DNA of 48,888 bases from Eubacterium sp. (GTDB taxonomy: Bacteria > Bacillota > Clostridia > Oscillospirales > Ruminococcaceae), in assembly GCA_031271685.1 (NCBI GenBank), contig JAISVH010000022.1, forward strand, positions 1 through 48,888, written 5' to 3'. Under the pieces are notes generated by a model, which did not search any database, was not told where the DNA came from, and saw only the letters and a program-made list of their open reading frames with translations. Position 1 is the first letter of the stretch; the number at the start of each line of letters is the position of its first letter. The position numbers and the translations under genes are program-made. Shown here piece by piece: positions 25,387-46,137 of the stretch.

Positions 25387-25454
25387 TTGAATTGCTCCCA
25401 CAAAATATAGTAATCATAATACATAATATCATATTTTTCGACAAAAGTAAAGCC

Positions 25455-25484
25455 TTGATTTATTATTAATCGATATAGTATAAT
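25455..25484 (+). promoter_or_regulatory. Likely promoter of murL-murD2
   Basis: TTGATT (25455-25460), an 18-base spacer and TATAAT (25479-25484), about 90 bases before murL. Confidence 0.6.
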
Positions 25485-25498
25485 AATATTAAACCGAA

Positions 25499-25540
25499 CG
25501 AAACTAACCGAGCGGCTTTGCCGCGAGGAGATTAGTTTCG
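25499..25540 (+). repeat. Hairpin in murL leader, dispersed repeat family E copy 1
   Basis: CGAAACTAA (25499-25507) pairs with TTAGTTTCG (25532-25540) and encloses CGGCTTTGCCG. The first 27 bases (25499-25525) occur again, exactly and inverted, at 46111-46137. It lies in the 5-prime leader of murL, between promoter and ribosome site. Confidence 0.75.
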
Positions 25541-25575: not shown

Positions 25576-26898
25576 ATGGAAACCTATAAAAGCTTAAGGC
25601 AAAAGCATAAAAAATTTATCTATCATGATTATAAAATAATAGACCGCGGCTTTTATTTTCATTTCTCAATAGACGATACGCTGCACTTTTATCCTCGGTG
25701 GGAGCACAGTTTATCTGTTAATATAGATAGCGGCTTTTATTCTTATCTTGTTTTTAATTTAGGCATGGCCGAACTTGTCAGCTATTGGAAATGCGCGTGT
25801 CCTGAAACAGTTGAGATACGCTGCGGTCCAATTGACGGATTTCAGGAGGACTGGTGGAAAAAGCTTTATAAAAAAGGACTCGGAGAATTTTTTTATAAAA
25901 ATGGAATAGAGCCCGGCGATGATTTTATGACTATAAAGTCCTTGAGATCGGATAATACGCGCAAAATATCGGATATAACCGTGTCAAGCGGCTGTCTGAT
26001 CCCCGTGGGCGGCGGTAAGGACAGTGCGGTCACAATGGAATTGCTGGGTGTGGAAAACAATCTCTGCTATATGATAAATCCACGAAAAGCCGCTGTAGAT
26101 ACCGCAAGGGCCGCGGGTTTTTCCGATGAAAAAATGATAGTGGCGCGACGGACAATCGATAGCGAGCTTTTAAGGCTTAACAGAGAAGGATATCTTAACG
26201 GACATACCCCATTTTCTGCAGTAGTAGCTTTTTCAAGTTATATTTTTGCCTGTTTATCCGGTAAAAAATATATAGCCCTTTCTAATGAAAGCAGTGCCAA
26301 CGAAAGCAATGTATCAGGCACTGAAATAAATCACCAATACAGTAAAAGCGTTGAGTTCGAAAGAGACTTTAGAGAATATACCGCTTATTTATTTGGAGAA
26401 ATCCCCGAATATTTCAGCCTTCTGCGCCCGCTGAACGAATGGCGTATAACCGAACGGTTTGTGTCATATAAAAAATATCTTAATATTTTTCAAAGTTGCA
26501 ATGTTGGTACGAAAGCCGACATTTGGTGCGGAAAGTGCGCTAAATGTCTCTATGTTTACATTATGCTTTCGGCATTTTTAAAAGACGGCAGTCTGATTAA
26601 AATTTTTGGGAGCGATATGTTGTCCAACGAAACATTGACCCCAATATTTGAAGGGCTTATCTATGAAAATGTTGACAAGCCGTTTGAGTGTGTCGGCACG
26701 CGCGAAGAAGTAAAATATGCGTTAAAGAATGCTTATAAGCTTCGTGTGGATGAAAACGAAAAAATTCCGGAGCTGTTATTAAAATTTATAAACATGAACA
26801 GAAATGCCGTTGATAATGCCGTGGAACAATATTATGACAAAAACAATTTCGTGCCCGGTGAATTTTTACATCTTTTAGGAGCAGGTAATGAGAGATAA
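25576..26898 (+). CDS. murL: UDP-MurNAc-L-Ala-L-Glu epimerase (MurL)
   Basis: In Xanthomonas oryzae MurL uses ATP to epimerise the terminal L-Glu of UDP-MurNAc-L-Ala-L-Glu to D-Glu. This 440-residue protein has the expected length and layout: an N-terminal region rich in aromatic residues, a PP-loop-like ATP site LIPVGGGKDSAVTMELL (GGGKDS at 145-150), a central segment with SNESSANESNV (236-246), and a cysteine cluster WCGKCAKC (C318, C321, C324). Immediately downstream, overlapping by 11 bases, is a MurD-like ligase, as in the MurD2-MurL system. I am fairly sure of the family; the reaction is inferred from it and from the partner gene. A GGGGGG run lies before the ATG. A promoter and a family E hairpin precede it. 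Confidence 0.82.
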   Translation: METYKSLRQKHKKFIYHDYKIIDRGFYFHFSIDDTLHFYPRWEHSLSVNIDSGFYSYLVFNLGMAELVSYWKCACPETVEIRCGPIDGFQEDWWKKLYKKGLGEFFYKNGIEPGDDFMTIKSLRSDNTRKISDITVSSGCLIPVGGGKDSAVTMELLGVENNLCYMINPRKAAVDTARAAGFSDEKMIVARRTIDSELLRLNREGYLNGHTPFSAVVAFSSYIFACLSGKKYIALSNESSANESNVSGTEINHQYSKSVEFERDFREYTAYLFGEIPEYFSLLRPLNEWRITERFVSYKKYLNIFQSCNVGTKADIWCGKCAKCLYVYIMLSAFLKDGSLIKIFGSDMLSNETLTPIFEGLIYENVDKPFECVGTREEVKYALKNAYKLRVDENEKIPELLLKFINMNRNAVDNAVEQYYDKNNFVPGEFLHLLGAGNER

Positions 26899-28135
26899 GC
26901 TGATAGATTTTTTTAGCGGCAAGAGCGTGTTGATATTGGGATTTGGTTTAGAAGGAAAATCAACCTACCGCATTTTAACGGAATTGAATTGCGCGGGAAA
27001 TATAATGGTTGCCGACCGAAATCCAATAATTGAAGATTTAGATTGCCGTGTGTTTATAGGAGAAAACTATCTTAAAAACATTAAAAACTATGATATAATC
27101 ATGAAATCTCCCGGTATAGCTCTTTTAGACAGCTTGCCAGAATCCGAAAAAGCGAAAATCACTTCCCAGACCGACCTGCTTTTAAGATTCTGTAAAAGCA
27201 AAACCGTTGGCGTTACCGGCACAAAGGGAAAATCTACCACAGCGTCGCTTATTTACCATATATTAAAAAACTGCGGCAAAAAATCAGCGCTTACAGGAAA
27301 TATTGGAATACCGCCTCTTGATGACTATGAGCTTTATGACGATGATACAATTGTCGTTTGTGAATTGTCCAGTCATCAGCTTGAATACGTAAAAGCGTCG
27401 CCTGATATCGCGGTGATTTTAAATATTTTCCCTGAGCATTTAGACCATTATGTCAGTTTTAAAGCCTATAAATCTGCAAAGGAGAATATCTTTAAATTTC
27501 AAAATCAAGACGGCATCGTTATTTACGATGAAGAATTGGTTTCAGACAGTTATATTAGCATTATTGATAAAAAAATACCGATAAGCGATGTTAAAACAAA
27601 GCTTATCGGGCGTAATAATTTAAACAATATAGCTGTGTCGCTAAAAGTTTCAGTTTTTTTAGGATGTTTTCTGGACGAAGCGGTTAAAGCAGTTGAATCT
27701 TTTGTTCCTTTAAAGCACAGGCTTGAGCCGATCGGCAATATAAACGGCGTAGAATATATAAACGACAGCATCAGCACTATCCCTCAAGCCGCAATAAATG
27801 CGCTTATTTCGCTGCCGGGCAGTGACACGCTCATTGTGGGCGGCATGGACAGAGGAATATCTTATGATATCCTTATAGATTTTTTAAAGGATGGATCAGT
27901 TTTAAATCTGATAGTTCTTCCCGGAGCAGGTTATAGAATAGCCGATGAAATCGAAGCCGCCTATACCCCAAAATTTTCGATTTACCGCGCTCAAGACCTA
28001 GAAAATGCCGTCAGGTTTGCAAAATCTGTGACAAAACTCCGCTGCATCCTTTCACCAGCCGCTGCCAGCTATGATTTTTATAAAAATTTTGAAGAGCGCG
28101 GCGAACATTTTAGAACTTTAGTCAATAGCGTATAA
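26888..28135 (+). CDS. murD2: MurD-type UDP-MurNAc-L-Ala glutamate ligase (MurD2-like)
   Basis: A 415-residue Mur ligase. The N-terminal Rossmann part has LILGFGLEGKST (15-26); the ATP loop is GVTGTKGKSTTASLIYH (GTKGKST at 111-117); then SSHQLEY, NIFPEHLDHYVS and HRLEPIGNINGVEYINDSIST (the third domain, NDSxxT motif). The order is that of MurD. It overlaps murL by 11 bases, so the two are translationally coupled. In the known pair MurD2 adds L-Glu to UDP-MurNAc-L-Ala and MurL then makes it D-Glu; specificity for L-Glu here is inference from the pairing. It could instead be the normal MurD. Its end overlaps the convergent gene at 28118 by 18 bases. Confidence 0.85.
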   Translation: MRDKLIDFFSGKSVLILGFGLEGKSTYRILTELNCAGNIMVADRNPIIEDLDCRVFIGENYLKNIKNYDIIMKSPGIALLDSLPESEKAKITSQTDLLLRFCKSKTVGVTGTKGKSTTASLIYHILKNCGKKSALTGNIGIPPLDDYELYDDDTIVVCELSSHQLEYVKASPDIAVILNIFPEHLDHYVSFKAYKSAKENIFKFQNQDGIVIYDEELVSDSYISIIDKKIPISDVKTKLIGRNNLNNIAVSLKVSVFLGCFLDEAVKAVESFVPLKHRLEPIGNINGVEYINDSISTIPQAAINALISLPGSDTLIVGGMDRGISYDILIDFLKDGSVLNLIVLPGAGYRIADEIEAAYTPKFSIYRAQDLENAVRFAKSVTKLRCILSPAAASYDFYKNFEERGEHFRTLVNSV

Positions 28136-35342: not shown

Positions 35343-36623
35343 TTAAAAAGAAGACGTAATATTTTTATAAATTTTAAAAATTTTTTCTGCAGCAGATTTT
35401 ATATCGGAATTATTATCGACTATAAAATCTGCGCTTTTTTCATATAACGAAGCTCTTTGGTTATATATTTTTTCTATCTCTGACAGGTTTTTTGACAACG
35501 GTCTGCCGCTTTGCTCTAAATCTGCAATATTGCGTTTAATATAAAATATAACCCCGTTTTGTTTAAGATTAAGAATATTTTCATGGTCAATTATCGTACC
35601 TCCGCCGGTTGATATAATAAGTCCGTGTTCTTTTCCAAATTTTGAGACGCACTCTTTTTCAATAAAACGAAAATATTCTTCACCTTTTGCGGCGAAAATA
35701 TCAGGTATTGATATTTTTTCCTGTTTTTCAATTTCATCATCGATATCAACTAATTCCTTTGGCGCAATTTCGTGATAGAAAATATCTTTCAGCATATTTC
35801 CAACCGAAGTTTTTCCACATCCGGGCATTCCTATAAGTATTATGTTTTGGTTTATTTTAACAAGAGCTTCCAGAGTTTCATTAACTGTTTCGTCTGAAAT
35901 TTGTTTTATGCCCATTAATATCTCGGCGCCTTTCTTTGCTTGGTAAACTAGCATGGGTAGCCCGCCTGAGAATTTTAAACCAAGCTTTTCGGCCTGTAAA
36001 ATCAGTCTTGTTTTAAGAGGGTTGGGTACAACATCGACCACTGCATAAAGTTTCGGAAATTTTGACAAATCGATAAGGGTTTGTTCATTGTCAGGATACA
36101 TGCCGGATGGTGTAGTGTTAATAATTATTTCAGTATCACTTTGGTCATAAATATTTTCGTAGTTAAGTTTTCCGCGACGAGATACTTTTTGAATTTCTTT
36201 TGCCTCTTGATTTTTGCAAAATACGTAGGATGTTAGAGAGGTTCCGCCGGTTCCGAGTATAAGCACTTTTTTGTCTTTAACTATTATTTTTTTAAGAACA
36301 AACGTTTTCTTAAGTCCGTAATAATCACAGTTGTCACCGTATAATTTCCCATTTTTACTATAAATAAGGTTGACACAGCCTATCTCTTTGGCAATGTCTG
36401 AAATTTTATCGCAGTATTTCATAACAGCCACTTTGTACGGTATAGTAATATTGACTCCACCAAAATCGGGATTTTTGAAAAAATCTTCAAGCATGTCCTC
36501 GGATAACTCAAATTTTTGATAGTTATAATTTAATATTCCGACTGATTTTGCAAATCTGTCATGCACAAAAGGGGAGGGGCTGTGTGAAAGCTTTTTCCCA
36601 ACTAAACCATATAATTTTTCCAA
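35343..36623 (-). CDS. aroEK: Shikimate dehydrogenase-shikimate kinase fusion
   Basis: Two steps of the shikimate pathway in one polypeptide of about 426 residues. The AroE part (1-255) has KLSHSPSPFVHD, GVNITIPYK (Lys64), DNCDYYG and the NADP loop LILGTGGTS. The AroK part (260-426) has the P-loop GMPGCGKTS (265-273), VDIDDEIEK and SGRPL. I chose the TTG at 36621-36623 because AAGGAG lies 7 bases before it; an ATG further up lies in a repeat. It is the last gene of the aroB-aroA-aroC operon, separated from aroC by 321 bases of repeats, so it may have its own promoter. Fusions of these two are known in other clostridia. Confidence 0.9.
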   Translation of the reverse strand: MEKLYGLVGKKLSHSPSPFVHDRFAKSVGILNYNYQKFELSEDMLEDFFKNPDFGGVNITIPYKVAVMKYCDKISDIAKEIGCVNLIYSKNGKLYGDNCDYYGLKKTFVLKKIIVKDKKVLILGTGGTSLTSYVFCKNQEAKEIQKVSRRGKLNYENIYDQSDTEIIINTTPSGMYPDNEQTLIDLSKFPKLYAVVDVVPNPLKTRLILQAEKLGLKFSGGLPMLVYQAKKGAEILMGIKQISDETVNETLEALVKINQNIILIGMPGCGKTSVGNMLKDIFYHEIAPKELVDIDDEIEKQEKISIPDIFAAKGEEYFRFIEKECVSKFGKEHGLIISTGGGTIIDHENILNLKQNGVIFYIKRNIADLEQSGRPLSKNLSEIEKIYNQRASLYEKSADFIVDNNSDIKSAAEKIFKIYKNITSSF

Positions 36624-36646
36624 TTTACATCTCCTTATAAAAAGTT

Positions 36647-36944
36647 CAAACATCTGCGGCGGAGCTTCTTCCGGTATTTTAACAAGCGTTATATTAAATT
36701 ATTAATCCTGAACCAAACATTTGACAATTATTACGTGTTTTTTGCCGAAAAACCGTTTTAATTTTTTCTTAAATATCAATGTATATCCGCGTCAAAATTG
36801 TATTGTTTGACGACAAAAATCCTACGAGATATTTTGTCTACTGTTTTTTGCAGGGGTAATAACTATAGCGGGAGATAATCACCCTCCGCGGACACAGTCG
36901 GCATGGATCCCGCCGCCTAAGAAGAGACGGGGACATAAACGCGG
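36647..36944. repeat. Repeat-filled gap in the aro operon
   Basis: The gap holds a family A copy (36647-36690), a partial family B copy (36758-36810), a stretch like 46082-46108 (CTACTGTTTTTTGCAGGGG) and a family F copy (36886-36944, TCCCGCCGCCTAAGAAGAGACGGGG by position). I see no coding frame and no clear promoter. Confidence 0.65.
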
Positions 36945-46017: not shown

Positions 46018-46137
46018 GCGCTATAGTAAATTAACTTGAAAATAAGCAAAAATAATTTTTGCAAACCGAATATGCATATATTATTCCCCTGCAACAAACA
46101 GTAGACAAATCGCGGCAAAGCCGCTCGGTTAGTTTCG
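46018..46137. repeat. Repeat cluster: family D arm and family E copy 2
   Basis: 46018-46072 matches the family D arm (TATAGTAAATTAACTTGAAAATAA) up to TTTTTGCAAACCG. 46111-46137 is an exact inverted copy of the 27 bases at 25499-25525. Between them, GCAACAAACAGTAGAC matches text near 36840. The cluster lies between rqcP's end and the promoter of the gene at 45017. Confidence 0.7.

Follow-up and report, generated by a model that had tools for sequence, protein, structure and literature searches.

A MurL–MurD2 gene pair as the probable route of D-glutamate into the peptidoglycan of a Eubacterium sp. of the Clostridia

We analyzed a DNA stretch of 48,888 nucleotides from Eubacterium sp. (Clostridia, Ruminococcaceae; assembly GCA_031271685.1, contig JAISVH010000022.1), hereafter the window, which is contig 150 of a 2.26-Mb draft genome. 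Two overlapping genes on its forward strand encode a homologue of MurL and a MurD-type ligase. An earlier note, made from the letters alone, had read them as a MurL–MurD2 pair, that is, an alternative route to D-glutamate (D-Glu) in peptidoglycan. In Xanthomonas oryzae this alternative route is formed by MurL and MurD2 (XOO_1319/XOO_1320), according to the accessible text of two papers (PMC8788868, PMC5808125). The features of the pair, by position in the window, are the following:

25576–26898, forward strand: murL open reading frame, 440 residues, MurL homologue by profile match
26008–26025, forward strand: PP-loop-like GGGKDS, predicted ATP/pyrophosphate-binding loop, residues 145–150 (homologue alignment)
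26497–26547, forward strand: cysteine motif C308-x9-C318-x2-C321-x2-C324, predicted QueC-like zinc site (homologue alignment)
26888–26898, forward strand: 11-base overlap of murL and murD2, read directly, with AGGAG ahead of the murD2 start
26888–28135, forward strand: murD2 open reading frame, 415 residues, MurD-type ligase by profile match
27218–27238, forward strand: ATP-binding loop GTKGKST of the ligase, residues 111–117 (sequence; conserved among MurL-linked ligases)
27434–27436, forward strand: E183, aligned with D182 of Escherichia coli MurD and E197 of X. oryzae MurD2 (alignment; published mutagenesis)
27851–27853, forward strand: R322, aligned with K348 of E. coli MurD and R358 of X. 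oryzae MurD2 (alignment; published mutagenesis)

The overlap, the GGGKDS loop and C318/C321/C324 in a MurL of 440 residues, and the GTKGKST loop of the ligase had all been described in the note, and all were found where it had placed them. The search with a MurL profile that it had proposed also gave a significant match: NF041275 (MurL_Xanthmoales, an equivalog model for the Xanthomonadales) matched residues 68–385 with an E-value of 2.1e-65 and 221 bits. For comparison, the same model gave 836 bits with the MurL of Xanthomonas sacchari and 300 bits with a homologue from Pseudonocardia. C308 adds a fourth cysteine to the three already noticed, and these four residues, as well as the GGGKDS loop, are invariant across 79 aligned homologues. 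Among 81 MurL sequences, 80 present the loop as GGGKDS and one as SGGKDS, and the cysteine motif is found in 81 of 81, with a first spacing of 9 residues in 70 of them and of 11–15 in the other 11.

Regarding the ligase, it scored 282 bits with the murD model TIGR01087 (cut-off, 212 bits), a label that is not discriminating, because X. sacchari MurD2 also passes it with 298 bits. As far as the accessible text of PMC8788868 goes, E197 and R358 of X. oryzae MurD2 replace D182 and K348 of E. coli MurD, and the double reversal leads to the use of D-Glu. The window ligase carries Glu and Arg at these positions (E183 and R322), the predicted MurD2 combination, as does the annotated record of X. sacchari MurD2. 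Numbering on E. coli MurD without its Met, Arg stands at 348 in 85 of 85 rows of MurL-linked ligases (83 of them distinct) and Glu at 182 in 79 of them. Unlinked MurDs showed Asn (15) or Asp (5) at 182, and Lys at 348 in 20 of 20. These came from 16 of 17 chosen genomes without MurL and from four genomes with MurL that hold a second, canonical MurD; from the 21 rows taken, a fragment (L142, from genome G099) was set aside, two of the remaining 20 are cut short, and G228 was omitted, as its MurD is in two pieces, each under the cut-off. By itself, Arg at 348 has no diagnostic value, because the MurD of Streptococcus mutans also carries it (PMC8788868, accessible text). We also considered position 319, at which K319T makes L-glutamate (L-Glu) acceptable to E. 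coli MurD, and discarded it: the window ligase and 85 of 85 linked ligases have Ile there, and it is not diagnostic because 15 of 20 unlinked MurDs have Ile too. In a tree of 108 rows built by a quick method, 87 linked rows (counting X. sacchari and the G099 fragment) split from 21 canonical MurD rows (counting E. coli) with a support of 99. The window ligase groups with the MurL-linked ligases, including X. sacchari MurD2, which sits on a long branch.

As the note had suggested, we looked for murI and a canonical murD elsewhere in the draft genome, and found neither. Searches for glutamate racemase with PF01177 (Asp/Glu racemase) and TIGR00067 gave no match, other racemase families not being sought. 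The sole class IV aminotransferase match (on contig C134) was rejected as a D-amino-acid transaminase, since it is a branched-chain enzyme with 34 bits against a cut-off of 277. The draft therefore presented no gene for D-Glu formation by either MurI or D-amino-acid transaminase. MurC (C80) and MurE (C114) exceed their own cut-offs, and a MurF-like ligase (C26) reaches 222 bits, below its cut-off of 289. The only MurD over the cut-off is the one adjoining MurL; a second, canonical MurD was rejected, the other TIGR01087 matches being MurC, MurE and the MurF-like ligase. In two genomes of the same family (G142 and G246), canonical murD lies directly ahead of two M42-peptidase-like genes, with the G246 gene read in two frames. 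It is absent from this site in the window genome, where a valS-like gene stands, and in the congener G265, where a leuB-like gene does (genes were named by eye, and the M42-like pair was identified as homologous with blastp). G265, listed at 100% completeness, encodes MurL, shows no MurI and likewise has a single MurD over the cut-off, the one linked to MurL. With murI and canonical murD absent from both draft genomes examined, we infer that the pair replaced them in the genus.

In order to contextualize these absences, two draws of genomes were compared, one from the class (291) and one from the family (119), with four genomes shared and 406 distinct genomes in all. MurL was detected in 13 of the class genomes, spanning 7 families and 9 genera, and in 11 of the family genomes. 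MurI exceeded its cut-off in 243 of 291 and 98 of 119 genomes, respectively, and reached an E-value of 0.001 or less in 261 and 106. Over the union of the draws, MurI was above the cut-off in 0 of 22 genomes with MurL versus 339 of 384 without it (Fisher p 2e-19, a value that overstates independence, as the genomes are related). Twelve of the 13 class genomes with MurL gave no MurI match; the other, G099, which is 65% complete, gave 1.1e-8, far below the cut-off. Seven of the 11 from the family gave none either, and G319, G354, G370 and G396 gave 20–34 bits, resembling the second matches seen in several genomes with a true MurI. We searched 41 chosen genomes (13 with MurL, 18 with neither gene and 10 with MurI) with a model of D-amino-acid transaminase. 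Its cut-off is of little use, as no genome among the 41 and a single one of 14 controls attained it, so we quote bits: at most 41 in the 13 genomes with MurL and, in the 18 with neither gene, 211–238 in four, 111–119 in two and 80 or less, or no match, in twelve. The second MurDs of G029 (L151), G062 (L152), G183 (L150) and G235 (L153) are canonical, with N182/K348; none of these four genomes shows a MurI match, and their scores with the transaminase model do not exceed 33 bits. The note had held that finding the pair in a Gram-positive, spore-forming lineage would be notable. The pair is there, and sporulation has genetic support in the window genome (SpoIVA, 693 bits); by the counts above it is not exceptional in Clostridia, and the MurL/MurD2 pathway is already known.

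The pairing itself, MurL adjoining a MurD-type ligase as in the known pathway, holds well beyond the window. All 13 class genomes with MurL, the window included, have MurD beside it; in one of them the two form a single chain, and in another a contig end truncates MurD. In the latter, G099, MurD runs off the contig, and a fragment on another contig, which shares a 219-base overlap with it (96% identity), is on that account probably the remainder of the same gene. A scan of a genome collection gave at least 575 stretches encoding a MurL relative (two patterns may match one gene), from which 80 distinct loci were kept. MurD lies directly downstream on the same strand in 72 of these named loci, with gaps from -68 to 167 (L058 is cut by the locus end), and two more encode MurL and MurD as single chains, of 900 residues (L068:1524-4226) and 838 residues (L070:5926-8442). 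The single chain of the class draw has 1019 residues (L022:5475-8534, genome G024), both parts being matched beyond an E-value of 1e-70. By the record titles of the scan, MurL relatives occur in Clostridia, Erysipelotrichales and Bacteroidales. Among the records are those of three isolates, Ruminococcus flavefaciens, Mordavella massiliensis and Eubacterium sp. ER2, together with metagenome-assembled genomes labelled Bacteroidales, Erysipelotrichaceae and others; the range in Erysipelotrichales and Bacteroidales rests on titles, mostly of metagenome-assembled genomes, whose labels may be wrong. Two reviews, in their accessible parts, place the route in some Gammaproteobacteria, Alphaproteobacteria and actinobacteria, and mention low-similarity MurL orthologues in a fungus, cyanobacteria and an amoeba. 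Judged by homologues, the range of MurL is wider than given there: scattered in Clostridia and, by title, in Erysipelotrichales and Bacteroidales. A MurL homologue was also found on a Pseudonocardia plasmid (L165:2264-3673), where the 6-kb stretch examined carries no annotated MurD; this homologue may act on a different substrate.

The MurL profile match, the lack of murI and of another canonical murD, and the predicted determinants for L-Glu together support the reading proposed in the note: the gene pair is very probably the route by which this organism places D-Glu in its peptidoglycan. Since the usual enzyme making D-Glu was not found in the draft genome, L-Glu is apparently added and then flipped, a roundabout way reported hitherto chiefly from Xanthomonas and a few further bacteria. 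Several observations weigh against this. The draft is 93% complete, so absences are not certain, and the searches with PF01177 and TIGR00067 did not extend to broad-spectrum amino-acid racemases of other families. The window MurL misses the 700-bit cut-off of NF041275 and, on this score, is not filed under the Xanthomonadales-type equivalog. Position 182 is Asp instead of Glu in 6 of 85 MurL-linked rows. Weak matches to the MurI model occur in 5 of 22 genomes with MurL (G099 and the four family genomes named above), and canonical MurD accompanies MurL in four (G029, G062, G183 and G235). Neither MurL nor MurI was found in 18 of 291 class genomes (e.g. G005 and G166), some of them incomplete drafts, and a strong transaminase match was present in only 4 of these 18. 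Finally, no MurD was found in the stretch examined around MurL at 6 of 80 named loci (L049, L053, L095, L104, L106 and L115, the last leaving only 664 bases after MurL).

One could argue that the ligase is an ordinary MurD using D-Glu, that the MurL homologue serves another substrate, and that D-Glu comes from a missed racemase, a racemase of another family or the surroundings. The incompleteness of the draft leaves room for this, and the curated murD model is passed, though X. sacchari MurD2 passes it as well. We regard it as improbable in view of the E183/R322 pair and the placement in the tree, the presence of a single MurD in the genome with no canonical murD at the usual site, and the exclusion of MurL and MurI across genomes. 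It could also be that the pair builds a product with D-Glu other than peptidoglycan, such as a secondary metabolite or a surface polymer, a role that MurL homologues lacking a MurD may have (the six named loci and the Pseudonocardia plasmid). This we consider very improbable: the ligase is the only MurD over the cut-off, alongside MurC, MurE and a MurF-like ligase, so that the wall pathway would otherwise be without its second amino acid, and the neighbouring genes look like housekeeping genes by eye.

How MurL may work within the peptidoglycan route is suggested by its predicted fold. A confident structure model (predicted local distance difference test score, 92) resembles the PP-loop ATPases QatC and QueC, with similar loop and cysteine motifs, in a comparison by VIA-align over the top 1000 of Foldseek, covering the families listed there. 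The model has the QueC-type Rossmann PP-loop fold and, next to the QueC motif SGGxDS plus C(x)8CxxCxxC, MurL presents the near forms GGGKDS plus C(x)9CxxCxxC or a longer spacing. Profile comparisons gave fainter signals: the MurL profile matches the PP-loop enzyme TtuA across the GGGKDS stretch (E-value 4e-4), and hhalign of the MurL alignment with E. coli QueC gave one weak match, at the cysteine motif (probability 10.8%). PF06508 (QueC) did not match the window MurL at an E-value of 1 or less and matched 5 of 79 homologues (best E-value, 0.01). No Pfam model matched it at 0.001; at 1 or less the only match was DUF6395 (PF19932; residues 292–332, E-value 0.0013, 19 bits). A phmmer search against PDB sequences gave three matches, the best with an E-value of only 0.38. 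According to the accessible parts of two reviews, MurL is without known domains and its mechanism is unclear; relative to the openly accessible literature, the predicted QatC/QueC-like fold is new. Following this prediction, the ligase would add L-Glu and epimerization to D-Glu would follow, with MurL, a putative QueC/QatC-type PP-loop protein with a zinc-type cysteine site, binding ATP at GGGKDS and adenylating the alpha-carboxylate of the terminal L-Glu. Adenylation is a hypothesis from the literature, and the fold class supports it as a step before epimerization. More broadly, we think it likely that MurL is an unrecognized branch of the QueC/QatC PP-loop proteins in which carboxylate adenylation drives the one-way epimerization of a peptide residue, and that a mobile MurL–MurD2 cassette has displaced MurI and MurD in numerous lineages within the Clostridia and Bacteroidales.

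Compared with known systems, the pair shares with Xanthomonas MurL/MurD2 the order of the genes and a short overlap (20 bases in X. sacchari), the lack of a detected MurI, Glu and Arg at the determinants, the GGGKDS loop and the cysteine motif. It differs in that its MurL is just 27% identical to that of X. sacchari (with 51 of 58 invariant positions in common), its host comes from a class in which sporulation genes occur and some relatives of its MurL are single chains. Canonical MurD with MurI has the Mur ligase family and, as inferred, the end product in common with the pair, but presents Asn or Asp and Lys at the determinants and lies on the other side of the tree. QatC, from the qatABCD anti-phage defence system (PDB 9y01/9y02; PMC13279940, accessible text), is 12% identical to MurL in the structural alignment and differs in partner and gene context, and a PADLOC defence-system search with four MurL proteins gave no match. 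With QueC chains, the alignment covers MurL only from around residue 137 onward. DUF6395, a family of unknown function, matches weakly around the cysteine motif, also in 77 of 79 homologues at an E-value of 1 or less (best, 6.6e-6), but the window MurL is below its cut-off of 25 bits.

Upstream of murL, the single promoter claimed in the note was not borne out. There are two promoter-like sites, each matching 10 of 12 positions (25438–25466 and 25455–25484), and the scan gave 22 sites on both strands, some inside genes, versus 11.7 (standard deviation, 3.3) in shuffled sequences. A search for inverted repeats found none upstream of murL. A 27-base pattern of the murL leader occurs at 25500–25526 on the forward strand and at 46110–46136 on the reverse strand without mismatch (0 in 100 shuffles), and is possibly a small dispersed repeat. 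Among the surrounding genes, the open reading frame at 35343–36653 on the reverse strand appears by eye to be a fusion of shikimate dehydrogenase and shikimate kinase (aroE-aroK type), adjoining genes that resemble further steps of the shikimate pathway.

What is of interest in this pair is the mutual exclusion of MurL and MurI, the loss of canonical murD from the two genomes that we examined in this genus, the wider range and the predicted fold. The supply of D-Glu is an essential antibacterial target. If the proposed route is true, inhibitors of MurI would be expected to miss such organisms, and inhibitors of MurD2 or MurL to hit them, while a QueC/QatC-type fold would give directly testable residues for the mechanism of MurL, namely the GGGKDS loop and C308/C318/C321/C324.
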